This document shows positions 1,346-17,676 of a DNA stretch of 38,841 nucleotides, one piece after another. Each line of letters begins with the position of its first letter. Within the stretch, counting starts at the first letter, position 1. Below the pieces are notes generated by a model, which made no database searches, had not been told where the DNA came from, and saw only the letters and a program-made list of their open reading frames with translations. Origin of the DNA: Desulfomonilaceae bacterium (GTDB taxonomy: Bacteria; Desulfobacterota; Desulfomonilia; Desulfomonilales; Desulfomonilaceae); contig JAVHLK010000044.1 of NCBI GenBank assembly GCA_031082285.1, positions 178 to 39,018 on the forward strand, given 5' to 3'. Both the position numbers and the translations under genes were made by a program.

Positions 1346-3349
1346 CTAGAGTTCGCATGCCAGTGTAAAGCCGGCCTCGACGGCATGTCCGATGCGACCG
1401 CACTTTGCTGCGTCGCCGATGACGCGTACGTCGACCCCGGAGTTCTCCAGGGCCTTTGCCAGGGAATTCTCCGGCCGTGCTCCCATGGCTAAAACCACCG
1501 AATCCGCGGTCAGGGTATGGTCATTCCCCGCGGCGTCCGTGTACACGACCTGATGTTCGGAAATCTCCTTCATGGTCGCCTCGGTTATCAGTTGGATTCC
1601 CCGGAGCTTTAATTCCTTGAGCAATACCCACCGAGTGGACGGTCCCACGTCCTGAGCCATTTTTCGCGCCATTTCGATCACGGTGACCTTCTTGACCCCG
1701 TTAACCATGAGATTCCTGAGCACGTCGGGAGATTCCGCGTCGTGCAAGGTCAGGAAGTAGAGTTGCTCGGGCGAGATCGTGCCTTTGGTTGCCAGAAAGA
1801 TTGCCGTCTCGAGCCCCACCGATCCTCCGCCGACCACCACCACGTCCTTGCCTGTTTGCGCATTGCCTTTGAGCACGTCCCAGGCCTGATACACGTTCGC
1901 CGCGTCCACCTCTTGGATCGGAGGCTTGAAGGGAGCGGCTCCCGTGGCAACGACCACGACGTCGGGCTTTTCACGGTCCACCAGCTCGGGGGTAACCTCA
2001 ACGCCCAAACGCACGTCCACCCCGGTCTTACGGAGCATGGCCGCGTAGTATTCCGTGATATAGCGAAAGTCCGGCTTGTGAGTGGCCGCAGCCGACCACG
2101 GTATCTGGCCGCCGATACACGCTTCTTTGTCGCACAACACGACCTTGTGACCCCGTTCGGCCGCGACGGTCGCGAGTTCGCAGCCGGCAGGACCACCGCC
2201 TGCAACGAGAATCTTCTTCGGCGTACCGGCCGGTTGATACTCGGTTTCAGCTTCCCTCCCCGCCCGTGGGTTTACTACGCATCCCACGGGACGCAGTTGG
2301 AAAACATGGTCAAAACACCGCTGATTACACGCCACGCATCGACGCAGTTCGTCCGTCCGGCCTTCTCGCGCCTTCTTGACAAACTCCGGATCCGCGATCA
2401 GACCCCGAGCCACGCCGACGAGGTCGGCCACCCCTTCCTTCAGAACCTCCTCGGCAATGAAGGGATCGTTGATTCGGTTGCAGCCCACGACCGGAACATC
2501 AACACTTTCCTTGATTCCTCCAGCCAGGTACACGTAGCCGGCCTGTGGGAGATCCATGGTTATTTGAGGCACGCGGCTTTCGTGCCATCCCCCGGTTACA
2601 TTGATGCAGTCAGCGCCCGCCTCGGCAGCCGCCGCCGCGAAACGTCGCGACTCCTTGTTGGTGTGACTGTTCGGTACGAAGTCATTGCCCGCCACTCGGA
2701 CGACCACGGCCATCTCCGGCCCCGCTTCCGCGCGGACCCGACGGATGGTTTCCAGCCCGAACCGCATCCTGTTTTCCAGGGTGCCGCCGTACTCGTCCTC
2801 CCGGCGGTTCGTCTGCGGGGAAAGAAACTGGCAAACGAGATACCCGGCCGAAGCGAGCACTTCCACCGCGTCGAATCCCGCCTGTTTGGCTCTTCGGGTT
2901 GCCGACGTGAAATCCTGCTGGACGCGCTCGATGTCTTCGAGAGTCATGGCGGTGGTGCGAGCACGGCTGAAGCTGCTCGTATACTCCGACGGAGCCATAA
3001 CGGGGAGCCCTTTCATTCCGCAGAATGAATAAGCGCCGGCCATGTACAGCTGAACCGCACACTTGGCTCCCTCCGCGTGTATCGCTTGCACGAACCTCGT
3101 GAGGCCGGGTATGTTCCGATCGTCCTTAATGGACAACATGAAATCCATGCCCGATGCCTGGTCGTTGATGTCCGCACCGCCGATGATGATGAACCCCGCG
3201 CCTCCGCGGGCGCGAGCACGATAAAAATCGATGAAGCGATCGGTCACGTCGCCGGTCGGCGTGTAATTCAGGTGCATGGCAGTCATGACGACTCTGTTAT
3301 CCAGAGAAACAGGGCCGATGTCGATGGGCTCGAAGAGTCTGGAAATCAA
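1346..3349 (-). CDS. FadH-like 2,4-dienoyl-CoA reductase (flavin/Fe-S oxidoreductase)
   Basis: The 667-residue protein has the size and three-domain layout of E. coli FadH (about 672 residues). An FMN TIM barrel (about 1-330) is followed by a four-cysteine motif at C338, C341, C345 and C357 that should hold a 4Fe-4S cluster, then by FAD (VAGGGPAGCE near 382) and NAD(P)H (VVVGGGSVGLE) Rossmann motifs. Tyr170 in SAGYL and His256 in GWHES match the catalytic Tyr/His pair known for FadH, which favours dienoyl-CoA reductase over a generic old yellow enzyme. The start is TTG at 3349, preceded by GGGAGG at good spacing. It lies 16 bp after the crotonase gene and is the last gene of that operon. The enoyl or dienoyl thioester substrate is inferred. 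An enoate reductase role remains possible. Confidence 0.88.
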   Translation of the reverse strand: MISRLFEPIDIGPVSLDNRVVMTAMHLNYTPTGDVTDRFIDFYRARARGGAGFIIIGGADINDQASGMDFMLSIKDDRNIPGLTRFVQAIHAEGAKCAVQLYMAGAYSFCGMKGLPVMAPSEYTSSFSRARTTAMTLEDIERVQQDFTSATRRAKQAGFDAVEVLASAGYLVCQFLSPQTNRREDEYGGTLENRMRFGLETIRRVRAEAGPEMAVVVRVAGNDFVPNSHTNKESRRFAAAAAEAGADCINVTGGWHESRVPQITMDLPQAGYVYLAGGIKESVDVPVVGCNRINDPFIAEEVLKEGVADLVGVARGLIADPEFVKKAREGRTDELRRCVACNQRCFDHVFQLRPVGCVVNPRAGREAETEYQPAGTPKKILVAGGGPAGCELATVAAERGHKVVLCDKEACIGGQIPWSAAATHKPDFRYITEYYAAMLRKTGVDVRLGVEVTPELVDREKPDVVVVATGAAPFKPPIQEVDAANVYQAWDVLKGNAQTGKDVVVVGGGSVGLETAIFLATKGTISPEQLYFLTLHDAESPDVLRNLMVNGVKKVTVIEMARKMAQDVGPSTRWVLLKELKLRGIQLITEATMKEISEHQVVYTDAAGNDHTLTADSVVLAMGARPENSLAKALENSGVDVRVIGDAAKCGRIGHAVEAGFTLACEL

Positions 3350-3365: not shown

Positions 3366-4199
3366 TCATGCGCCTTTGAACTTTCCTTCGCGCTTTTGCA
3401 GGTGAGCGGCCATGGCCTCCATCACGTCTTCCGAAGGCAGGATCATGCTGGAACGGGCCGCATTGTAATCCAAGGCTTGATCCAGGGGAACTTCTTCGTT
3501 GAAGAGGAAGACGTCCTTCGCACCCTGAACCGCCAAAGGCGGATTGGCCGCAATTTCCCGGGCCATTTCCTCGGCTTTCCGATGGAGAGTCTCCGTGTCG
3601 GGATACACGTCGTTGACCAGATTGATGGCAAGGGCACGGGCCGCATCGAAACGATGTCCCCGGAATGCTATCTCGCGGGCATGCCCCTGACCCACGACCT
3701 TGGGCAAACGCTGCAGGCCGCCTACATCGGTGATGATGGCGAGCCGGGCCTCGGGCAGGCCGAAGACCGTGTCTTCGGAACACAATCGGATATCGCAGCA
3801 CAGTACCAGTTCAAGGCCGGCTCCAAGGCAGTGACCGTGTATGGCTGCAATGGTGGGGAGCGGAAGCCGTTCAAGCCTCGTGTGGATTGCCTGAATCCTT
3901 TTTACTTCCTTATAGAAAGTCGTCTTTTGGGTTGCGGTCGGCGGAGTCGTGATCATGGGTATGAGCTCGTTGTCCGGGCTCAAGTCCAGGCCCGCGCAGA
4001 ACGACTTGCCGGCTCCCCGTACCACGATCACCCGTGCATCGCGGTCCTCTTCAGCCGCGGCAACGGCCTGGTCGATCGCGTTCCACAAAGCGAGGTTCAA
4101 CGCATTTCTCTTTGCCGGCCGGTTGAGCGTAATGAACCCTACGCTCTCCTCGCGATGGTATGACGCAAGGTGATCCTGCATCGATGTGTGAACAACCAT
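3366..4199 (-). CDS. Crotonase family, dienoyl-CoA-isomerase-like
   Basis: This 277-residue enoyl-CoA hydratase/isomerase has the oxyanion-hole segments SFCAGLDL and HGHCLGAGLEL. Acidic residues are at Glu130 (GLEL) and Glu150 (LPEA), the two hydratase positions. Asp158 in TDVGGLQRLPKVVG matches a segment typical of delta3,5-delta2,4-dienoyl-CoA isomerases (ECH1 type). A mammalian-type isomerase would have Asp at position 130, so both hydratase and isomerase activity are possible. The ATG at 4199 has AAGGAG ten bases upstream; the internal Met7 has no ribosome site. It sits 39 bp after the radical SAM gene and 16 bp before the FadH-like gene. Isomerase plus 2,4-dienoyl-CoA reductase would be a sensible pair for moving double bonds in unsaturated acyl-CoA. 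Confidence 0.88.
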   Translation of the reverse strand: MVVHTSMQDHLASYHREESVGFITLNRPAKRNALNLALWNAIDQAVAAAEEDRDARVIVVRGAGKSFCAGLDLSPDNELIPMITTPPTATQKTTFYKEVKRIQAIHTRLERLPLPTIAAIHGHCLGAGLELVLCCDIRLCSEDTVFGLPEARLAIITDVGGLQRLPKVVGQGHAREIAFRGHRFDAARALAINLVNDVYPDTETLHRKAEEMAREIAANPPLAVQGAKDVFLFNEEVPLDQALDYNAARSSMILPSEDVMEAMAAHLQKREGKFKGA

Positions 4200-4238: not shown

Positions 4239-6632
4239 CTATTCACGAAGACCGAGTTCAAAACTTCCATGCAGTATCGGTGATTTGTGCGCACCGGATT
4301 TGGCCGCCAGTTGGCGGTCCAACGCCGCCACGACGCGAAGATCCATGACATGGTGGTCCAGAGACGGAATGCGTTGCGAGTCGGGCCGTGCGGCCTTAAG
4401 GCATGCGAGAAGGATTTCCTGATACTCGAGATCCCCGACCTCCGGGATGGTTGCAAGAAGTTCCATGGCCTCGTGGGCCTTCTCACTATTCAGCAGGCAT
4501 CGTACCCGCTTCAACACCATGGTCGGAAGTTCGTTCCCCATTTTTTCGTAGTATTCCAATGCCCACAAGCACTTGCCGGAGGCCGACAGCGTATCGGCCA
4601 GCGCGTTCAATGCCTTGGGCTGCGATTCGAGCATATGGGCGAGGTTTTCGATTTCCTCACGTTTACCGAGCTTCGAGAGTTTGTGAACCAGCGTCAGAAA
4701 ATGACTCGGAGTGCGTGCCAGCTTCGTTGGATCAATGTCCCTGAGGGTCAGGTAATAGAGGATTTCGTTCTGGTCCTTGAGAACATCCAGGTCGGAAAAA
4801 TGATATTGATTGCGAATGTCAAGGGATCGAATTTCCTCGATCGACCCCGCCTGGAGAGTCTTGAAGACCTTGTGGACCTTGGCTTGGACCTCGACTTCTT
4901 TTCCCCGCAACTCTTCCTGGTGATAGTCTTCGGGAAATCCGAATGTGAAGGAGGTCTCTTCTCCGCCCGAAACCCCTATGAGTCCTTCTTCAAACGATGC
5001 AAGCAGCAGACCGCGTCCCAGAAGAACGTCCCAGTATTTGCCCGATATTCCCGTAAACGGTACTCCGTCGATGTAGCTTCGGGAATCGAAGATCACGCGA
5101 TCCATAGATCCCGCGGGCTGGTCGGTTTCCTTGAAGAAACCCAGAGCCGAGATCAGCTCTTCCACCGGCATGTCGTCATCCGAACAGACTCGTTCGTATC
5201 CCGACAGAAATTGTTTCATCAGCTCAAATTCTTCGATTGCGCTGCACGCCAGGGTCCCATAGGCATGAAACACGGGGTCGAGTTCCAGGTCTCGCCGATT
5301 GGACAGAAGAAAATCCAGAATCTCGAAAATCCTCTGTTTATAGTACACGTCAAGTTTCATCTGTTCGTTTGCAAGGACCCACATGTTTCGCACTTTGCGA
5401 ATATCGTCGCGATGCATTTCCGTAGTTTCGTACTGATCCCCCACGGAAAAGTAGCTCGGCCGGTACACGGGAAGCGGTCTAAACCCATAGCGTTCGGGAT
5501 TCTTCTCATAGATGGACCCGAAGTAGAGCTGCATCTGTTGGGAGCCTGAGTTCGATTCTATGGGAATGTCGAGCGAGCGCACAAACTCCATGGTCTGCCG
5601 GGCATCGGCCACGGTCTCGCCGGGAAGACCGAATATGGAGAACAGCTCGGTGGAAAGTCCCAATGATTTCGCCACACGGATATTCTCCGCCAACTGTTCC
5701 AGCTCGATGCCCTTATTCGTTTGTTTCAGTACGCCCGGGCTGCCCGACTCCAGGCCGAAGGCAATAGTGTCCGCTCCCGCGTCGCTGAGCTTCTTCAACA
5801 TGGCCGCATCGACGAGATCGCTGCGCGTTTGGCACCAGAAACGCGTCGTAATGCTCCGTCGGATCTTTTCCGCAAGGAGTCTCTCGGTTCTGTCTCGGTC
5901 GTCCGTGAAATTGGGATCCGCGAACCAGAACCGTCCGATCCCTTGGCCGGCGAGCATCTCCATTTCCGCGGTTACTCTCTCGATGGAATGGTAGCGGATC
6001 TTGCCTTTACAAATGCTCGGCGTGATGCAGAACCGACACACGTGCCTGCATCCCCTGGAAGAGAGAAGTATCGCGGTGTCCTTACCTTCCAAGTTCAGTG
6101 TTTCCGTCAAGTACGGCGACGGGTAGACATCGAGATCCTCCGGTCGATCCGGTCCCGGACCCGTATCCACGATTCTGCCCTTGCATTTGCAAGATATTCC
6201 CCGGACGGACTCCAAGTCTTCCCCTGCATTGAGCTTCGCGGCCATCTCAAGCATGACGACTTCGGCTTCCCCTCGCACGAGCGCGTCCACATCCACCAGT
6301 GCCTCGAGGGCTTGTGACGGCATCGAGATCGCCTGAGGCCCCCCGAGGACCACATGGATGTGTCGATGTCTCGACTTGATGTACCTGCAGAGAAACCGAA
6401 TCCGATGCATGGTGCTCTGGTATGCGGTAAAGCCGATGACCTGCGGATCGACACGGCGTATCCACATCTCCAGGCTCCGCAGGGTCAACGGTCGGTCCAG
6501 CAGATCGTCCAGAATGATGCCCTTCCAACCTGCGCTCTTCAGCGCGGCCAGAATATAGCCCGTGGAAATGGGAATGCTCTCGGAAGACTCGAAGCCCACA
6601 TCGTGATTTACATTGATGAACAGAAAAGACAC
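4239..6632 (-). CDS. Radical SAM protein with embedded FKBP/trigger-factor PPIase domain
   Basis: This protein has 797 residues. Residues 1-130 resemble the cobalamin-binding Rossmann domain of B12-radical SAM proteins (ISTGYILAAL, GFTAYQST, VVLGGPQ), but the DxHxxG cobalamin motif is absent. The radical SAM core starts at C195-x3-C199-x2-C202 in SSRGCRHVCRFC and continues to about 400 (FADPNF, GLESGS, FGLPGET). Residues about 508-592 match an FKBP domain of trigger-factor type: MDRVIFDSRSYIDGVPF, FEEGLIGVSGGEE and FPEDYHQEELRGKEVE. The remaining 200 residues are helical and repeat-like. The start is GTG at 6632 with AAGGGGA just upstream. It is the first gene of an operon with the crotonase and FadH-like genes. 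The radical reaction and substrate are unknown; the PPIase part suggests a protein or peptide partner. Confidence 0.85.
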   Translation of the reverse strand: MSFLFINVNHDVGFESSESIPISTGYILAALKSAGWKGIILDDLLDRPLTLRSLEMWIRRVDPQVIGFTAYQSTMHRIRFLCRYIKSRHRHIHVVLGGPQAISMPSQALEALVDVDALVRGEAEVVMLEMAAKLNAGEDLESVRGISCKCKGRIVDTGPGPDRPEDLDVYPSPYLTETLNLEGKDTAILLSSRGCRHVCRFCITPSICKGKIRYHSIERVTAEMEMLAGQGIGRFWFADPNFTDDRDRTERLLAEKIRRSITTRFWCQTRSDLVDAAMLKKLSDAGADTIAFGLESGSPGVLKQTNKGIELEQLAENIRVAKSLGLSTELFSIFGLPGETVADARQTMEFVRSLDIPIESNSGSQQMQLYFGSIYEKNPERYGFRPLPVYRPSYFSVGDQYETTEMHRDDIRKVRNMWVLANEQMKLDVYYKQRIFEILDFLLSNRRDLELDPVFHAYGTLACSAIEEFELMKQFLSGYERVCSDDDMPVEELISALGFFKETDQPAGSMDRVIFDSRSYIDGVPFTGISGKYWDVLLGRGLLLASFEEGLIGVSGGEETSFTFGFPEDYHQEELRGKEVEVQAKVHKVFKTLQAGSIEEIRSLDIRNQYHFSDLDVLKDQNEILYYLTLRDIDPTKLARTPSHFLTLVHKLSKLGKREEIENLAHMLESQPKALNALADTLSASGKCLWALEYYEKMGNELPTMVLKRVRCLLNSEKAHEAMELLATIPEVGDLEYQEILLACLKAARPDSQRIPSLDHHVMDLRVVAALDRQLAAKSGAHKSPILHGSFELGLRE

Positions 6633-7742: not shown

Positions 7743-9575
7743 CCTAATTTTCGCGGAAGTGGTTTGATGGGTCGCCGGCCCCTCAATGCCCCCGTGATGA
7801 TGTTCCCCCCTTCATGCGAATCGAGCTCGGTGCCACGTCAGCCCCATTCGTATGCCGAATTGCCTCTACTTGGACAAAGTTCAGGCGCACGTCCCCCCTT
7901 AGTCCACTTTCCCCCCCATTTGCGCTGCATTTCCCCAGGATACGGCGCTTTGACTAGCCCGAGTCGCAAAAGCTTAGAATCCTCCTTCTCATTTGAAATA
8001 GTGTATCGTTCGACGGGTGCCCCCCAACCAGTCGAACCTTCAGGGTCCGAGCACCATAGAGCACTCGAGCCGGCAGCTTGATGAGCCGAAACCGTATGGC
8101 CTTCATACGCTTGCCCACCCATGTTCCCCCCAGAACCAAACGCTTCATCGCCGAGTTCAGGTTCAAGGCCAGGATCATGATGTGCCACCATGCTGCATTC
8201 ACCCCAAAATTTCCTGAAGGAAGCCTGCCTCCTGCCAGATCTTCCTTCATGATCGAATGGGCCTCCTCGGATTTGCCACAGCGCTCCCGATGCCACCAAA
8301 TCAGCTCGTCTCCAGGAAGGTCTCGATTGGTCACCAGCCCGAACACCTTGTGCTTCACCGACCCAAAGTTCATGGTCGGAAACGGCAGAGAAGGTTGATC
8401 GTCCAGGTCCGGCAGAGCGGGCTGCTCAAGAGGCTCTCGAATCGCCAGGTACCGGAAGGTCGGAGCATTTTTCTTCCGAGCCATTTCCGCGGGGACAAAG
8501 CAGACCTCAGCATATTCCTGACCCGAATCTACCAAGCCATCCTCGGTTTTACGCCACAACCGGCTCCACTCAGGCTCCTCAACCTCGGAGACCGCCTGTT
8601 TGAAGGATTCCGTCACCTTGGCGCCAATGCAAAAGTCGATCACCCCGAAGCGCGGCTTATGCGGATCAGCGCAAAACTCCATTAGATCGTGCTGATACCC
8701 TGCCGTGTCCGTGCGCAGATAGACCTTCGATACCCCACCAGGCAGCATACCCAACCCCTCGGAAAGCACGCGAACATTGTCCGTACCTGCCCAGACATTC
8801 CCGTCTCGAAACTCCGAGTGGAGGATCAGATCCTGTTCCGCCCAGTACACCTGCAGAGGCTGATACGCCTTGTGTCCCTTGTAGCAATACAGCGCTTCCC
8901 TTTTGTTTGTCTCCACCACGGTCGCATCCAGATCCAGGGTCGCTACCTCTTGCGGAGAGCGCCTTTGAACGGAGCCTACAAAATCTCCAGTTACCCCTAT
9001 CAAGGCCTTGAGATGCTCGTTGGGAGCAGGAATAAAGGAACCTTCCTCCGGTCTTAGCTTCTCCTGCTCAGGATCATGAAAATTACTCAAATAGCGGCCT
9101 GACGAAGACGGAGAAGGCACTGACCTCGATTGTCCCTTACGCATCCTCTTCTCCAATCCCCGTCTCTCTCGACGCGATTTTCCAAACCCCACAGACTTTC
9201 GCAGTACCCGACAAAAACCCTCATCTGCTTCCAGAATGTCCAAGTCGCTCAGGCCTTGACCGTCAGCCAGATTCAGGTATATCAATGACATGATCGTCTC
9301 AGCGTCGGACCAACCCTGCTCTGGACGAATCTTCAGGCGGTTCTCGACGGCCCTGCTCAATCCCATCACGTATCCAAATTCGAGATACGGGAGAAGACCA
9401 GCCATCGCTGTCATCCCCCCGGACTTCTTCTGAACTTCGTACTTGAAAGGAAAGAGACCTTGCTTCATACTAATATGCACCTCGTTGGTGATAGAGCTTT
9501 TGTGCAAAAATGATTCTATCTCCCTGAAACCACAGGGTCAACGAGGTTTTTCATTTTTTTTGATGCGCGATTAGG
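7743..9575 (-). mobile_element. IS1380-family insertion sequence, ends approximate
   Basis: The element is defined by its IS1380-type transposase. Candidate ends are CCTAATTTTCGCGG at 7743 and, on the minus strand, CCTAATCGCGC from 9575. They share CCTAAT and a CGCG-like patch but are only weakly matched overall. No clear target duplication is seen. The right end abuts the dispersed repeat copy at 9578. A length near 1.8 kb is normal for the family. Confidence 0.6.
7954..9507 (-). CDS. IS1380-family transposase
   Basis: This is a 517-residue DDE transposase. The three acidic positions lie in TLDLDATVVETNK, in YLRTDTAGYQHDL and in ERCGKSEEAHSIMKEDLAGG, followed by the typical NAAWWHIMILALNLN segment. 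It is uninterrupted and of full family length, so it may still be active. The start at 9507 is uncertain; Met14 (MKQGLFPFKYEV) also resembles family N-termini. It lies inside the predicted IS borders and is not part of the neighbouring operons. A second copy is not seen in this window. Confidence 0.9.
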   Translation of the reverse strand: MHKSSITNEVHISMKQGLFPFKYEVQKKSGGMTAMAGLLPYLEFGYVMGLSRAVENRLKIRPEQGWSDAETIMSLIYLNLADGQGLSDLDILEADEGFCRVLRKSVGFGKSRRERRGLEKRMRKGQSRSVPSPSSSGRYLSNFHDPEQEKLRPEEGSFIPAPNEHLKALIGVTGDFVGSVQRRSPQEVATLDLDATVVETNKREALYCYKGHKAYQPLQVYWAEQDLILHSEFRDGNVWAGTDNVRVLSEGLGMLPGGVSKVYLRTDTAGYQHDLMEFCADPHKPRFGVIDFCIGAKVTESFKQAVSEVEEPEWSRLWRKTEDGLVDSGQEYAEVCFVPAEMARKKNAPTFRYLAIREPLEQPALPDLDDQPSLPFPTMNFGSVKHKVFGLVTNRDLPGDELIWWHRERCGKSEEAHSIMKEDLAGGRLPSGNFGVNAAWWHIMILALNLNSAMKRLVLGGTWVGKRMKAIRFRLIKLPARVLYGARTLKVRLVGGHPSNDTLFQMRRRILSFCDSG

Positions 9576-9577
9576 GG

Positions 9578-9665
9578 GGGCCAAGCTTGACATATTGGCA
9601 TTTATGTCGGGTCTTCTTTTATCCTCTCAAGCTCCGCCGCCGGCCGAGGATTCGTTTCCCCACAT
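9578..9665 (+). repeat. Dispersed repeat copy 2
   Basis: GCTTGACATATTGGCATTT is identical to the 1009 copy. Similarity continues for about 80 bp, through TATCCTCTCAAGCTCCGCCG to GGATTCGTTTCC. It directly follows the right end of the IS1380 element. Confidence 0.65.
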
Positions 9666-9761
9666 GCACGTGTGCGGCAGACTATTCCGCGAGACTCGTA
9701 AAACGTCATTCTTGCGCGTCTCCCTCCCTCCCTGACGGTCGCCGTTAACCCAATGGTCACT

Positions 9762-10055
9762 TCAAGTCTGTGGAACTGAAGGTGTCTGTTGCGCCCCGTG
9801 CAGCACCGCCAGTATGTCGATCTGTTCATCTTTGACTCGATAGATAATTCGGTACGGCGGCTCAATCACTTCCCGAATGTCGTCTCGTCTGTATTCCGGA
9901 ACGACTCTACCGGATCTCGGAAACAGACCTACTTGCTCGGACCTGTGAGTCAAACGATGGATCAGACGGTCTGCGTAAGGCTTTGAGTTCTGAGTGACGT
10001 ACTCGTGGATGGAGTGAAGATGATTGATGGCGGTATCCGTCCAGTGAACTCTCAT
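9762..10055 (-). CDS. ParE/RelE-family toxin
   Basis: The 97-residue protein has the ParE fold signature: MRVHWTDTAINHLHSIHEYV at the start, RSGRVVPEYRRDDIREVIEPPYRIIYRV in the centre and IDILAVLHGAQQ at the end. The conserved Arg and Tyr of the PYRIIYRV strand are present. Family members either poison gyrase (ParE) or cleave mRNA on the ribosome (RelE); the EPPYRIIYRV pattern fits the ParE branch. Its ATG overlaps the antitoxin stop by 4 bp, which indicates translational coupling. The final nine or so residues are poorly conserved in type. Confidence 0.85.
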   Translation of the reverse strand: MRVHWTDTAINHLHSIHEYVTQNSKPYADRLIHRLTHRSEQVGLFPRSGRVVPEYRRDDIREVIEPPYRIIYRVKDEQIDILAVLHGAQQTPSVPQT

Positions 10056-10240
10056 GCCTTCAGCCCAAACCGTGACCTTACTTTCTTTACGTCCACGGTG
10101 CGGCCGGCCTCACTGTCGGCGAGTCCTGACTCGACGGCCTGCCGGACGTAGATCCGGTACATGAGGTCGTCCCAGGAAGCATCGTCCGGAAGATCTTCTA
10201 CCAAGTGTAATGCCTCATCTTTGATTCCCGTGGTTTCCAT
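10052..10240 (-). CDS. Antitoxin of the ParE-type pair
   Basis: The 62-residue protein METTGIKDEALHLVEDLPDD... has the helical, acidic N-terminus and the segment SWDDLMYRIYVRQAVESGL that usually precedes ParE/RelE toxins in such pairs. I start it at ATG 10240 because AAAGGAGA lies about ten bases upstream; a longer frame reaching 10294 has no ribosome site. It overlaps the toxin start by 4 bp, in the usual antitoxin-first order. DNA binding and autoregulation are expected from the family but no operator is evident. Confidence 0.8.
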   Translation of the reverse strand: METTGIKDEALHLVEDLPDDASWDDLMYRIYVRQAVESGLADSEAGRTVDVKKVRSRFGLKA

Positions 10241-10713
10241 AGCGAGACTTCTCCTTTCGTTGACCAACCGACCCGACGGTTTCGACTTGAGCATTCTTCT
10301 CTACAGCATGATCAGCCACGAGAAAGGCTCGATCCCCGGTAATCCCGTAACGATCCTTCATGGGCTGACATTGAGGCCCGAAAAGGAGGATCGGTATCCT
10401 GGGCACTCATACTATAACAAGACCGGATCTGATAGTCCAATGGACCGGGGGCCAGGCTTGATATATCGGCATTTAGGTCGGGGCTTCTCTTATCCTCTCA
10501 AGCTCCGCCGCCGGTACCCTCGGACCCAGTTGGTACGACAAGTTTGCACATTCCGAAGGGTTGCAGCGTCCCGTTATGAATCGGAATCCCTGTTGACTGA
10601 AAGCATCCGGAACCTCCTCGGCTCCACATGTTTTATGTGTTGCAGGATCGCGTCGAAGTGACTATATGTGTAGGACCGAGTAAGAAGAGCGGCCGAGTCC
10701 GGGAGTAAAGCCC
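10241..10713. other. Intergenic stretch with repeat copy 3
   Basis: Apart from the repeat at 10447-10516 I see no gene. The last 30 bases include GGGAG before the ATG at 10714. No clear promoter could be picked out. Confidence 0.5.
10447..10516 (+). repeat. Dispersed repeat copy 3
   Basis: GGGGGCCAGGCTTGATATAT then CGGCATTTAGGTCGGG and TATCCTCTCAAGCTCCGCCG match copies 1 and 2, but the copy lacks the final GGATTCGTTTCC part. Confidence 0.6.
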
Positions 10714-11199
10714 ATGGTCACCAAAGATATTGTGGACGGAAAGCGCATTCTCGCGGTGGACGACGAGCCGGAGATTCTCGAAATCATCCAGGAAGCATTG
10801 GATCATTGTGTTGTCGTAACCGCGAGTAGTTTCGAGGAGGCTTCGAAGGAGATCGCGGATCACGAATTCGATCTCGTAATCTTGGACATCATGGGAGTGA
10901 GGGGTTTCGACCTGCTCAAGAGATGTCGAGATCGCAAGATGCCGGCGGCAATGCTCACTGCTCACGCCATCGATGTCGAGAGCCTCAACAAGTCCCTCCG
11001 TCTCGGTGCGGTCTCGTTTCTCCCGAAAGAGGAGCTGGTACGCCTCCCGGAACTCGTTACTGAGATCTTTGAAAGCGTCGAAGCGGGAAGAAGTCACTGG
11101 CCTCAGTTGTTCAAACGCCTTGGGCCGTTTTTCAAGACGCGGCTCGGCGTAGTGTGGGAGGACCTTGAAAAGCCGACCTATCCCGATCACTACTACTAA
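10714..11199 (+). CDS. Single-domain response regulator (receiver)
   Basis: This 161-residue CheY-like receiver has acidic pair D16-D17 (AVDDEPE), phosphoacceptor D58 (LVILDIMG), T82 (MLTAHA) and K105 (FLPKEEL), so all phosphotransfer residues are intact. No output domain follows. The last 40 residues (SHWPQLFKRLGPFFKTRLGVVWEDLEK) are a family-specific tail. GGGAG precedes the ATG. It is convergent with the sigma-54 activator gene and their stop codons overlap. No histidine kinase is adjacent, so its partner is unknown. It may act in a phosphorelay or by protein contact. Confidence 0.9.
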   Translation: MVTKDIVDGKRILAVDDEPEILEIIQEALDHCVVVTASSFEEASKEIADHEFDLVILDIMGVRGFDLLKRCRDRKMPAAMLTAHAIDVESLNKSLRLGAVSFLPKEELVRLPELVTEIFESVEAGRSHWPQLFKRLGPFFKTRLGVVWEDLEKPTYPDHYY

Positions 11200-13209: not shown

Positions 13210-16200
13210 TCATGCCGTTCCATAGAGGGCTATTTCGCCTGTTTGGCCGTGAATAATCATTTTGGTGCCCACGATCACGTCGAGATCGTTGAATCGAACC
13301 TTTTCCGGTTGTCCCGCAAATTTCACGACCTGACGCACCTGCCCCACATACACCTTGTCCAGAGACTTGGCAATGTCCGCAGCATGAGCTCCCCTGCCGC
13401 CGAGTCGGCTGACCAAGGCCGTCGGCACGGGCAACGAGAAAACCTCCTCCATGATCTCCTCGGGAACCGGGTCGTTGACCACGAAGATGAATCCATTGAG
13501 TTGTTCCGATACGGGCAAGCGTTCGTTCATGGAATCGATAATGGACTGAGCTCGGTTGATGTGCCGATAAGGAGCAATCTGATTGCGGTCCGTAACCAAG
13601 ATGCCGCGGAAGATTCCTCCCGACACTCCCGTACCCTGTGCAATGACGCGATATCCAAATGACTTCAAAGCAGGAATTCTCTCGCGTCGTTCCCGGTCTT
13701 TGCGAATCTGGAGGACGAACACCCGACCTTTCTCGATCGTGTATTCGAGTCGCACGTCAAAATGAAGTTTCTCCGCGGTCCTGAACAGGACTTGGGAAAG
13801 GTCCTTCCAAGCCTGGGGCATGTCTCCGGCAAGCGTTTCTTCACGTTTCCAGTGGTCGTGCACGGGTATTGTGGACACCTTTCCGTCGACCACATCGGTA
13901 CCTTGATCGCCCAGAGCGAAATCACCTCTTATTTGCATCGTGAACGGATTGTACGAAATCACTCCTGTCCCGGAAGATTCCAGTTCCACATTTCCGTACA
14001 CCATGTGCTGAACGATCACCGGGGTACGCCACTCACCGTCGATACCCGCTGCCCGGCGATACTTCTGGGCCGCGGGCCCCTGAGAGGAGTGGGACACTAC
14101 GACCGCGCAATGGATGAGTATGTCGAGAAATCTGCCCTGATCCAGCAGTTCGACAACCTTGGGAGCGAGCTGCCCTACACGTTCCTTGTAGTCGAATGCA
14201 AGGGTTTTCATCTGTTCTCCGGTCATCTCCGCTTTGCGCAGGACCTTGAACTGGGCCTTCCTCCTGTCCATCAACTCTTGAAATTCATCACGTTCCGCAT
14301 CGAATGCGGCCTGACTGAACTCCTGCAGGAATCGCCGATAGCAATCGTAGGCGAACCACGGGCCGATAGTCTCACTGAGCCGTTCGGCGATGTCATCGTT
14401 GATCCCGACATTGGTAATGGTGGTCATCATGCCCGGCATGCTTATCCGAGCGCCCGATCTCACGGAAAAGAGCGCGGGGTTGCGGCGGTCGCCCAAGGAT
14501 TTGTTCCACTGCTTGCCCAGTGTTTCCACCGCGGATTCAAATTTGGCACGAAAGTCGGGGTCCGAGACCATCTGTTCCGGTTCCCCAAGAACCTGATCGG
14601 TAGAGATGACAAAGTAAGGGGGCGTGTTTTCCGCAAACCTCAGGAGCGCTGCCTTCAAGCCGATGCGGCAAGGCGAGATCTCCTCGGGTGTGGGAAAGTA
14701 AAAGGGAGCACAGCGCAAATGAGTGCCGGGATCGGACGTAACTCGTCGGCCGGATTCCGCGAGGCGCTGGTTGAGGAACAACTCAATCTTGTCGATGAAC
14801 GTTTCCAAGACCCGCAAGTTGCCGTCCCTTGCCTGGAGATCCGAAATGTACAAGGTTTTAAGATAGTTCTTGAAGAAATCCGATTCGGGAACGTGCTTCA
14901 AAGTCGTCAAATCTCTGAGTTTGCGCGGAAGCCTGTCCATCGGGTAGGTGGAAAGGAAATTCTCGAGAGGACCTTCGAACCAGCTCCGGTACGCGGAATG
15001 CACGTCGTCGAGCTCTTTCTTGATGGATTTGAGCAGGTCCCGTACCTTGTCAAGGGTAAGCCCGAGCCTCCCCGACAGCCGCAGATCTCTGCCCGCCCTC
15101 TGAAGATAGTAGCTGGAATGCCCGTTGACCGCGACGCCTTGCACCAGATGATCCAGGAAGATGAGCGCATCGGGCAAGTTGTCAAGACTGATTCCATCGA
15201 ACCGGCTGTTGCTGATGCTGGTCGCCAACGTCTCCTGCAACGCTTCCAACCGGAGGTCCTTGGTGAATGCCTCGAAACGCTCTTCGATATAGGCAGCCTT
15301 TTGCGCGTATGCATGACCCGCCTTCTTTGCCCGCAGAATAATCGGAGTTGCAGGCTGTTCCAGGTGCATACGCTCCATCTCCGCCGCGTAATTCTCCGCG
15401 CCCTCCGTGATGGTCACCGGTGCCGGCAATGGGTCGCGGAGGTCGGGCGTAAGAAAGTTCTCCTTTATTTCCCGCCGTTCCGAGATAATCCTTTCGAGAC
15501 GTGCCAAGTCCTCTTCCACCGTGGATCCGGTCGATCGCTCGGTTGCAATGAAGTACTTGTTGTACAGGCCCGCAATGAGGTCGATCACATCCAGTACCAT
15601 TCGTTTGGAGAACTCGGGCAGGCTCGGATCGTCTCGATACCTGGAAGTATCAACCGAAACCAGTGCGGACAGACCGTCATTGTGGACCAGGTCGATCTTC
15701 CCATCGGCAAAAATCGTGCGGCAAAGATTCCGAATTCCTTCGCTTTCCGACGGGGAACACCAACTGTCCATAGAAAGATAAGGGAGAGACTCCGAAGGCA
15801 TCCATTCGGAAATGACCTGCGGATCTCCGGTTGAAAAGTACTTGAGGATGCCTCCGGCAAAATAGAAATTCTCTATGCTCCCCCGCCAGTGGATGTCTCC
15901 CCTGAGTTTTCCGAGAAAGTTCCCGATCGGTCTGACGCCTCGATTGGCAAGCTCCCGGGCCAAACCCGCGGCCGTGAGCCTCAACGTATCCAGTGGTCCG
16001 ATGTCTTTCAACGAGTACGGTATCGCTTTGATCAGAGTCCTCACCAGGAAATGAGTCACCGAGGCATTTGCGCGCAACAGGCTTGAGATGTGGTACTGAA
16101 TCAAGTCCTCGTCGCGAAGCAGGGTCCTTCCGATTTCGATCTGCACGATCAAGTAGGGAATGAGCCGATGCATGATTCTCGGATTGGATGCCGTGATTGA

Positions 16201-17676
16201 CAGGAGAGTCTTGATCTGGTGTGCGTGTGCCTGGTTGGCCTCCACATCTTCCGCCAGCACCAACGGTTCCCCCGTGTCGTCGTCTTCGACGGTGTACTTG
16301 GTTTCCAGCGGCCGGAGGAGCGGACGCCGGAGCACATGGTCGATGAGCTCCTGGGCCATCAGGAAGTACCGTTCCCTCCCGAATGTGACGCCCAGAGATT
16401 CTATTGCGGTCAAGGCCGAGATTATCTGCCCGACGTCATTCGAGGAATAGGCCGTCTCGAGGAACATCCCGGCGAAGCCGTTCACCAGCTGCTTTGACGC
16501 CTGTTTCTCCGACTCTTCCAGTTGCAGGACGATCCGGCACACGCCGTCGATCAGGATCCGTTTGACTTCGGGCTTATGAACCTCCAGGATCTGTGATGCC
16601 AGCAGCTCGGCAAACGCGGTTTGAACCGCGGTCGGCAACAAGTGCACCATGTCCTGGAACGCCCGCACGATCGAGCACCATTCATCCCCGACGCTCTTGA
16701 CAAATTCGATGCCTTCGGCAATCTCTTCGGGATCCGGCTCCGACGCAGCATTCAGCATTCGCTCGTATGCAGTCCTCCGCCTCTCGATTCCCTCGGTTCC
16801 GCGCAACGCCACCTTGTCCAGAATATCGGTCCGAAAGCGTTGCTCTTGGGTGAAATCCGATTCCTGAACCGCCGCGTCCAACTTGACCAGGAGTTCGGCC
16901 GGATAGGGCCGGATTTCCTCCAGTGCCGTGATCAAGGCTCGAATTTGCGCTCGGGCCGAGAGTTTCTCAAGACCGGTCTCTTCCTCCCGGGAGTGCTTCC
17001 GTAAGGCCGATCCAATGCTCTTGATCTCCAGTACGCGTCTTTCGAGTGAATTGATGGGCCTGGCGAACGCGGTGTTCGCGAGAAAATCCACCCCTCTTTC
17101 CACAAACGGCAGATACGATTGGAGTAAAGGATTGCTCGACGTTTTGAGAAGACTCTCCACGAACCGTGAAAGCGCGTATTCTCCTTCGGATCGCGCGTCC
17201 GGATCGAATGGCTGCGTAATGGACGCAAAAAAGAACCCGAGCACGATGTCCATGAGCAGCGGGAGTCGATCCTTGACCGATTCGTCGTCCCTTTCCAGGA
17301 CGTACCGGGAAAGGACCTGCACCACATCCAGCCAGTTGGGGATCTCATGCAGTACCGGAATGAGATACTCCGCGATGGCCTTCCTGCGTCCCTTGTACGA
17401 AGTCAGATCGACGAGGTATTCGAGGGACTCTCGCGGAAACCTCGAATAAACGATAATCCCGGAATCCTCTTGCCTGAGATCGACCAGGTATGGAGCGGCG
17501 GATCCGCCGGTGCGGTCGAGTATCATCAGGACGCGCGGGAGGTTTTCCAGGACAAGGGTACTCTCGTCACGGATTTCGGCACCCGCCTCTCGGGCGAGCG
17601 AAACCAATCCTGCGATTTGGTAGGGATTGAGGGGTTCCTTTGTGCTCAATTTTCGAATGAGATCTCTGATGTCCAC
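13210..17676 (-). CDS. Giant PPDK-like protein without PEP/pyruvate domain
   Basis: This protein has 1488 residues. The C-terminal third is pyruvate-phosphate-dikinase-like. The ATP-grasp nucleotide-binding part has FSVRSGARISMPGMMTTITN (about 1070-1090), HMVYGN and RLEYTIEKGRVFVLQ. It is followed by a swivelling phosphohistidine domain, LVSRLGGRGAHAADIAK, with candidate His1431. The protein ends there, so the PEP/pyruvate TIM barrel of PPDK or PpsA is absent. The first 1000 residues are largely helical and I recognise no domain. The start is GTG 17676 with AAGGG upstream. An ATP-dependent phosphotransfer through histidine to another acceptor, as in glucan water dikinase or rifampin phosphotransferase, is a reasonable inference. 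It lies between two sigma-54 activator genes; the double-PAS one is divergent. Confidence 0.8.
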   Translation of the reverse strand: MDIRDLIRKLSTKEPLNPYQIAGLVSLAREAGAEIRDESTLVLENLPRVLMILDRTGGSAAPYLVDLRQEDSGIIVYSRFPRESLEYLVDLTSYKGRRKAIAEYLIPVLHEIPNWLDVVQVLSRYVLERDDESVKDRLPLLMDIVLGFFFASITQPFDPDARSEGEYALSRFVESLLKTSSNPLLQSYLPFVERGVDFLANTAFARPINSLERRVLEIKSIGSALRKHSREEETGLEKLSARAQIRALITALEEIRPYPAELLVKLDAAVQESDFTQEQRFRTDILDKVALRGTEGIERRRTAYERMLNAASEPDPEEIAEGIEFVKSVGDEWCSIVRAFQDMVHLLPTAVQTAFAELLASQILEVHKPEVKRILIDGVCRIVLQLEESEKQASKQLVNGFAGMFLETAYSSNDVGQIISALTAIESLGVTFGRERYFLMAQELIDHVLRRPLLRPLETKYTVEDDDTGEPLVLAEDVEANQAHAHQIKTLLSITASNPRIMHRLIPYLIVQIEIGRTLLRDEDLIQYHISSLLRANASVTHFLVRTLIKAIPYSLKDIGPLDTLRLTAAGLARELANRGVRPIGNFLGKLRGDIHWRGSIENFYFAGGILKYFSTGDPQVISEWMPSESLPYLSMDSWCSPSESEGIRNLCRTIFADGKIDLVHNDGLSALVSVDTSRYRDDPSLPEFSKRMVLDVIDLIAGLYNKYFIATERSTGSTVEEDLARLERIISERREIKENFLTPDLRDPLPAPVTITEGAENYAAEMERMHLEQPATPIILRAKKAGHAYAQKAAYIEERFEAFTKDLRLEALQETLATSISNSRFDGISLDNLPDALIFLDHLVQGVAVNGHSSYYLQRAGRDLRLSGRLGLTLDKVRDLLKSIKKELDDVHSAYRSWFEGPLENFLSTYPMDRLPRKLRDLTTLKHVPESDFFKNYLKTLYISDLQARDGNLRVLETFIDKIELFLNQRLAESGRRVTSDPGTHLRCAPFYFPTPEEISPCRIGLKAALLRFAENTPPYFVISTDQVLGEPEQMVSDPDFRAKFESAVETLGKQWNKSLGDRRNPALFSVRSGARISMPGMMTTITNVGINDDIAERLSETIGPWFAYDCYRRFLQEFSQAAFDAERDEFQELMDRRKAQFKVLRKAEMTGEQMKTLAFDYKERVGQLAPKVVELLDQGRFLDILIHCAVVVSHSSQGPAAQKYRRAAGIDGEWRTPVIVQHMVYGNVELESSGTGVISYNPFTMQIRGDFALGDQGTDVVDGKVSTIPVHDHWKREETLAGDMPQAWKDLSQVLFRTAEKLHFDVRLEYTIEKGRVFVLQIRKDRERRERIPALKSFGYRVIAQGTGVSGGIFRGILVTDRNQIAPYRHINRAQSIIDSMNERLPVSEQLNGFIFVVNDPVPEEIMEEVFSLPVPTALVSRLGGRGAHAADIAKSLDKVYVGQVRQVVKFAGQPEKVRFNDLDVIVGTKMIIHGQTGEIALYGTA

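Follow-up and report, generated by a model that had tools for sequence, protein, structure and literature searches.

C-methylation is the default reaction of the B12-type radical SAM fold class, and AprD4, which has the same fold, does not methylate. CysS, OxsB, TsrM and TokK are cobalamin-dependent and are not known to bind cobalamin through the classical His-on motif. Proteins are also substrates: both YcaO and radical SAM enzymes of the B12 type modify methyl-coenzyme M reductase (MCR). In the literature searched, we found no paper on a radical SAM enzyme joined with an FKBP domain, nothing relevant on YcaO joined with Dsr or DsrC, and no report of Dsr modification by a radical SAM enzyme of this kind. 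A term search of PMC11406059, PMC10591310 and PMC10504309 turned up no Dsr gene that is described as encoding a radical SAM enzyme, a YcaO or a TPR protein.

The window, the whole stretch of 38,841 nucleotides that was analysed, comes from a Desulfomonilaceae bacterium and encodes a radical SAM–FKBP protein of 797 residues on the reverse strand (4239–6632, (−)). The reading frame is open from a GTG start at 6632 to its stop, and it has end-to-end homologues in Desulfobacterota. The sequence AAAGGGG just before the GTG is a plausible ribosome-binding site. The AF2 model, built on the family alignment, has a pLDDT of 91.9 and a pTM of 0.88, and residues 1–405 make up the Rossmann domain and the radical SAM barrel. 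The N-terminal domain (residues 20–128; 6249–6575, (−)) is of the B12-binding type; PF02310 matches it above its cut-off (2.9e-14), and together with the fold match this gives the protein an N-terminal domain of the type found in cobalamin-dependent (class B) radical SAM methylases. The radical SAM core (residues 191–351; 5580–6062, (−); PF04055, 1.3e-24, and fold matches) contains the CxxxCxxC [4Fe-4S] motif C195-C199-C202 (6027–6050, (−)), which is invariant in all 35 alignment rows and identifies the protein as a member of the superfamily. Foldseek and VIA-align match the core to CysS, AprD4, OxsB, MgmA, TsrM and TokK; RimO and MiaB are also among the fold matches. Against the named NCBIfam B12 radical SAM equivalogs (ApyD, HpnJ, BchE, the MCR glutamine methyltransferase and others), the best score was 116.8 bits for a cut-off of 750, and the rest were also far below theirs. 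Thus no equivalog was reached at cut-off, and the view of the initial annotation that no standard family has this architecture agrees with both the profiles and the literature searched.

The initial annotation had also pointed out that the N-terminal domain lacks the cobalamin motif DxHxxG. A scan of the first 190 residues found the motif in 0 of 35 family members, and Tyr71 of this domain is invariant in the same alignment. The absence is therefore real; it says little about cobalamin, because the best-matching structures, including CysS, OxsB, TsrM and TokK, are cobalamin-dependent enzymes that are not known to use a His-on motif. We dropped the motif as a test for B12, since it is uninformative for class B radical SAM enzymes. 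Cobalamin binding and methyl transfer by the 797-residue protein are putative activities, and the absence of DxHxxG in 35/35 members is not diagnostic for the class.

Residues 499–594 (4851–5138, (−)) form an FKBP domain of the trigger-factor type. Pfam FKBP_C (PF00254) matches residues 508–585 with 1.4e-4 and 22.5 bits, above the cut-off of 21.1. The NCBIfam trigger factor model TIGR00115 (tig) covers residues 491–591 with E=1.4e-20; its score is below the whole-protein cut-off because the FKBP domain alone is shared. A phmmer search of residues 496–598 against the PDB returned trigger factors only, one of them a chloroplast form; in 1t11 and in 1w26, 90 residues align without gaps. The domain modelled alone by AF2 has a pLDDT of 92.8. 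VIA-align 2 superposes residues 499–594 on the E. coli trigger factor (1w26) with Z 15.1 and 1.3 Å over 96 residues, and the first ten Foldseek hits of the isolated domain are all trigger factors. Since the profile match and the predicted fold were both found, neither of the two outcomes that would speak against the central proposal of the initial annotation, an FKBP domain of this type inside a B12-radical-SAM-like protein, occurred. Pfam found neither Trigger_N nor Trigger_C in the 797-residue protein, which does not qualify as the chaperone trigger factor; the true trigger factor of this genome is a separate gene (G000:C188). A recent copy of that gene as the source of the domain is not supported, as the identity is 22%. 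More than 30 end-to-end homologues with the same domain order, from independent assemblies, rule out a fusion or assembly artefact.

The FKBP domain is flanked by helices on both sides in the AF2 model. The first TPR-like block comprises residues 408–495 (5148–5411, (−)), where the homologue L050 has TPR_19 and TPR_14 matches at the corresponding place. The second comprises residues 598–776 (4305–4841, (−)), with TPR_19 and ANAPC3 matches in homologues and PPR and consensus-TPR chains in the profile search. No TPR repeat exceeds the Pfam cut-off in the window protein itself. In L050 the repeats before and after the FKBP domain pass the TPR cut-offs, and the domain thus appears to be inserted in a TPR-like solenoid. 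Because matches of the core filled the VIA-align list, its rows for the two helical blocks are left out.

We compared the catalytic pocket set (Tyr26/Phe168, Phe36, Asp37, Phe46, Trp59/Phe198, Tyr82/Tyr221 and Phe99) with the family; the E. coli trigger factor position equals the position in the 797-residue protein minus 349. Phe198 corresponds to F547 and Tyr221 to Y570, and both are kept in 35/35 members. Positions 194 and 195 are hydrophobic in nearly all members, F, V or I occurs at the Phe233 position, and P, T or L at that of Asp37. The wall aromatic Phe168 (Tyr26 in FKBP12) is replaced by C, S or I in all 35. The trigger factors of the phylum also vary at the same pocket positions. Identity to distant clades is 31% for the FKBP domain and 20–22% for its helical flanks, so that the domain has evolved more slowly than they have. 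A partly kept pocket that has lost its wall aromatic throughout suggests a domain that binds a client or peptide and in which isomerase activity is reduced or changed. The initial annotation had taken the PPIase part to imply a polypeptide substrate or partner. This is reasonable, because the domain is slow-evolving and part of the peptide pocket is kept; active prolyl isomerization should not be assumed, given the lost aromatic. The same loss, together with one member in which the region is degenerate, could be read as a sign that, irrespective of the enzyme's function, the domain survives as a relic spacer and has no part in handling a client. The strict conservation of the Phe198 and Tyr221 equivalents and the slow evolution of the domain argue against this, and we regard it as quite improbable.

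Scanning 84,980 species genomes for homologues yielded 59 loci. The full-length form, with the same domain order from end to end, is carried by one clade of Desulfobacterota. Desulfomonile and relatives carry full-length proteins with 58–65% overall identity to the window protein, a second full-length group (L035, L037 and L038) has 38%, and the full-length proteins of Desulfobulbales and Desulfobacterales have 33–36%. The sister clade is a core-only radical SAM protein of about 410–440 residues, found in Desulfofervidus, Thermodesulfobacterium, Acidobacteriota and others. Directly 3′ of the core-only gene, and usually overlapping it, lies a gene for a TPR protein with four conserved cysteines; it is present at nearly all loci with enough downstream sequence. 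The profile of this TPR partner scores about 180 bits on the YcaO genes of the lineage f19 (see below), and the partner and the TPR tail of the YcaO-TPR protein have a common TPR module. TPR repeats accompany each of the two sister forms, either fused or supplied by the neighbouring gene. In a maximum-likelihood tree the core-only form splits off with support of 99/97 and the full-length form with 97/89. The outgroup branches are long, and the tree gives no order for the full-length and core-only states. The 97/89 clade includes L092 (1480–3831, in genome G246), the member whose FKBP region is shrunken and degenerate. In two loci from MAG contigs (L028 and L052), a stop codon within the radical SAM portion splits the gene into two reading frames, either by sequencing error or because these are pseudogenes. 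The helical flanks, the two-gene sister form and the dsr link described below were all absent from the initial annotation.

Downstream of the radical SAM–FKBP gene in the window, at a distance of 39 bp, is an enoyl-CoA hydratase/isomerase gene (3366–4199, (−); PF00378, 2.8e-49), followed by a gene for an old-yellow-enzyme (OYE) type NADH:flavin oxidoreductase that resembles 2-enoate/dienoyl-CoA reductases (1346–3349, (−); PF00724, 7.8e-74, and PF07992). This three-gene synteny is conserved within the Desulfomonile lineage only, which rules out the pair as general partners of the family. The synteny would suit an enzyme acting on a metabolite of a CoA-thioester or redox pathway together with the hydratase and the reductase. 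Neither neighbour was found at other loci of the family, and it is hard to see what a chaperone-type domain would do in such a pathway, so that we consider this function very improbable. No single operon is conserved family-wide, and the gene context differs by lineage. A DDE transposase gene (7954–9507, (−)) and a ParE-type toxin gene (9762–10055, (−)) lie upstream of the radical SAM–FKBP region. The window also encodes a 1488-residue protein (13210–17676, (−)) whose only Pfam match is a PPDK_N ATP-binding domain close to the C-terminal end.

The family co-occurs with dsrA. Among 395 genomes of the phylum, 35 are carriers by score (14 full-length and 21 core-only). With dsrA called present below 1e-60 and counts tallied by hand, it is found in 32/35 carriers and 158/360 non-carriers (Fisher 2e-8), and at the family level in 11 of 12 carrier families compared with 43 of 95 non-carrier families (p=0.002). 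This co-occurrence is confounded by a common anaerobic lifestyle and by phylogeny. Of the three carriers without dsrA, two have genomes that are 73 and 80% complete. The other is the complete genome G246, in which no DsrA was found and whose copy is the degenerate L092, a single case. Most dsrA-positive genomes are without the gene, which is thus not needed for Dsr in general. In the same phylum sample, genomes with YcaO-TPR also have dsrA in about 145/149 cases (hand count).

In several lineages the gene is physically linked to dsr genes. These were named by similarity to the cluster at L141 (G020), where dsrA was found with TIGR02064. From gene order and recognized sequences, we take the following genes there to be dsrB, dsrD, dsrN, dsrC, dsrM and dsrK, in this order from dsrA. 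A core-only gene and its TPR partner lie 1.1 kb upstream of this dsrA, with one opposite-strand nitrilase-like gene between. In lineage f19 (L035, L037, L038, L086–L090 and L151), the order is YcaO-TPR, the full-length gene and, 36–81 bp downstream and convergent, dsrC; for L035 the coordinates cover just the dsrC side together with a YcaO further away. Both C-terminal cysteines are present in the DsrC proteins that were checked. In L045, L060 and L061, dsrAB, with dsrD and/or dsrN, is 4–6 kb downstream of the full-length gene. A CxxCxxCC protein is encoded upstream at these loci, and a PrmA-like methyltransferase, a small TPR protein and YcaO (L045 and L061) between the full-length gene and dsrAB. 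L046 and L064 have dsrN 3–4 kb from the full-length gene. The CxxCxxCC gene adjoins the full-length gene in five Desulfobacterales loci and is near it in L064. Under a rough null of three dsr clusters in 3 Mb with a reach of 8 kb, and with lineage counts that are our own judgement, linkage in 3 of 12 lineages has a p of about 8e-4, or 5e-3 with laxer assumptions.

The fetched flanks of the window locus and of all Desulfomonile relatives contain no dsr genes, and neither do the flanks of most Desulfobulbales members. The dsrAB contig of the window's own genome carries homologues of the CxxCxxCC protein, about 1.3 kb from dsrB, and of cluster c8, both of which accompany the full-length gene elsewhere. 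No YcaO was found in this genome, which rules out YcaO as a universal partner. YcaO with a C-terminal TPR tail adjoins dsrC in three further lineages with no radical SAM gene nearby (L155, 8960–11379; L159, YcaO at about 8642–10333 and dsrC at 10498–10884; L160, 8454–10757). A different B12-type radical SAM protein of about 587 residues is encoded between dsrN and dsrMK at L158 (2767–4530; G290:C67), with dsrAB about 10 kb on, and similar paralogues are found 11–16 kb from dsrA in several other genomes.

We infer from these observations a protein substrate, its place in the Dsr system, the type of chemistry and the role of the FKBP domain. At close to even probability, the protein is a protein-modifying radical SAM enzyme with a B12-type domain whose client most likely belongs to the Dsr system (DsrA/B, DsrC or a maturation protein associated with them) and is modified as MCR is in methanogens. 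The helical, TPR-like solenoid would dock the protein client. The FKBP domain would hold a client segment, possibly one containing proline, and offer it to the barrel, by binding rather than by efficient isomerization. The Rossmann/TIM-barrel core would carry out the SAM radical chemistry, with C-methylation as the default and a non-methylating reaction possible. In some lineages, the client may be modified jointly with neighbouring enzymes such as YcaO. We prefer this reading because it joins TPR docking, the chaperone-type domain, the co-occurrence and linkage with dsr and the neighbours from protein-modifying families (YcaO and PrmA-like).

In the main rival reading, the enzyme would act on siroheme or on a different tetrapyrrole that DsrAB requires, and the FKBP and TPR parts would dock it onto apo-DsrAB or a siroheme-handling protein. 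One of the linked dsr genes is dsrN, a siroheme gene that resembles cobyrinate amidases; some B12-type radical SAM enzymes act on tetrapyrroles, and BchE is among the best NCBIfam matches. A polypeptide is indicated instead by the TPR solenoid and the FKBP domain of trigger-factor type, as well as by the protein-modifying families next to the gene, and we judge a tetrapyrrole substrate unlikely. The trigger-factor domain, the fold matches to RimO and MiaB and the variable gene context in Desulfobulbales would also fit a RimO-like enzyme that modifies some other protein or a general translation client, such as a ribosomal protein or nascent chain, with no special tie to Dsr. The narrow and patchy distribution (about 14/395 full-length genomes in the phylum) is unlike that of a housekeeping role in translation, and the dsr association would be left unexplained; we think this rather improbable. 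The preferred reading, a Dsr-system client, can be extended. Sulfate reducers may modify the Dsr system post-translationally with a dedicated set (radical SAM-TPR-FKBP, YcaO-TPR and the PrmA-like methyltransferase), a bacterial parallel to MCR maturation in which the trigger-factor domain is the client clamp; we offer this wider scheme tentatively and hold it to be somewhat doubtful. A chaperone-type domain that binds peptides within the radical SAM enzyme itself would be a new means of bringing a protein client to the site of radical chemistry. Should the Dsr link prove true, a major enzyme system of the global sulfur cycle would carry modifications unreported in the literature searched, and these could be checked by mass spectrometry of known proteins.

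The Rossmann and radical SAM core of CysS, TokK, OxsB, TsrM and AprD4 superposes on about 400 residues within 1–485 (Z 23–33), and the Y-x-x-N loop of CysS and TokK is kept in most family members. These enzymes differ in identity (approximately 17–20%), in their C-terminal parts, in having no FKBP or TPR and in acting on small molecules. MgmA, the MCR glutamine C-methyltransferase (TIGR04014; 9ccb), has a core of the size of the bare sister form (Z 27.8) and is a radical SAM enzyme that acts on a large redox enzyme. It is archaeal and has neither FKBP nor TPR, and the window protein scores 90.6 bits against the TIGR04014 cut-off of 360. MCR modification would be the nearest functional parallel; MgmA is among the best core fold matches. 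The likeness to the PPIase domain of trigger factor extends to sequence as well as fold (32% identity over the superposed residues), whereas the ribosome-binding N-domain, the chaperone C-domain and the Phe168 aromatic have no counterpart in the window protein. FKBP51 and FKBP52, among the Foldseek hits, combine FKBP and TPR in one chain; they are eukaryotic, lack a radical SAM domain and have a PPIase that is not of the trigger-factor type. Taken singly, the core fold and the FKBP domain are already known; within the reach of the methods used, their union and the link to dsr are new.
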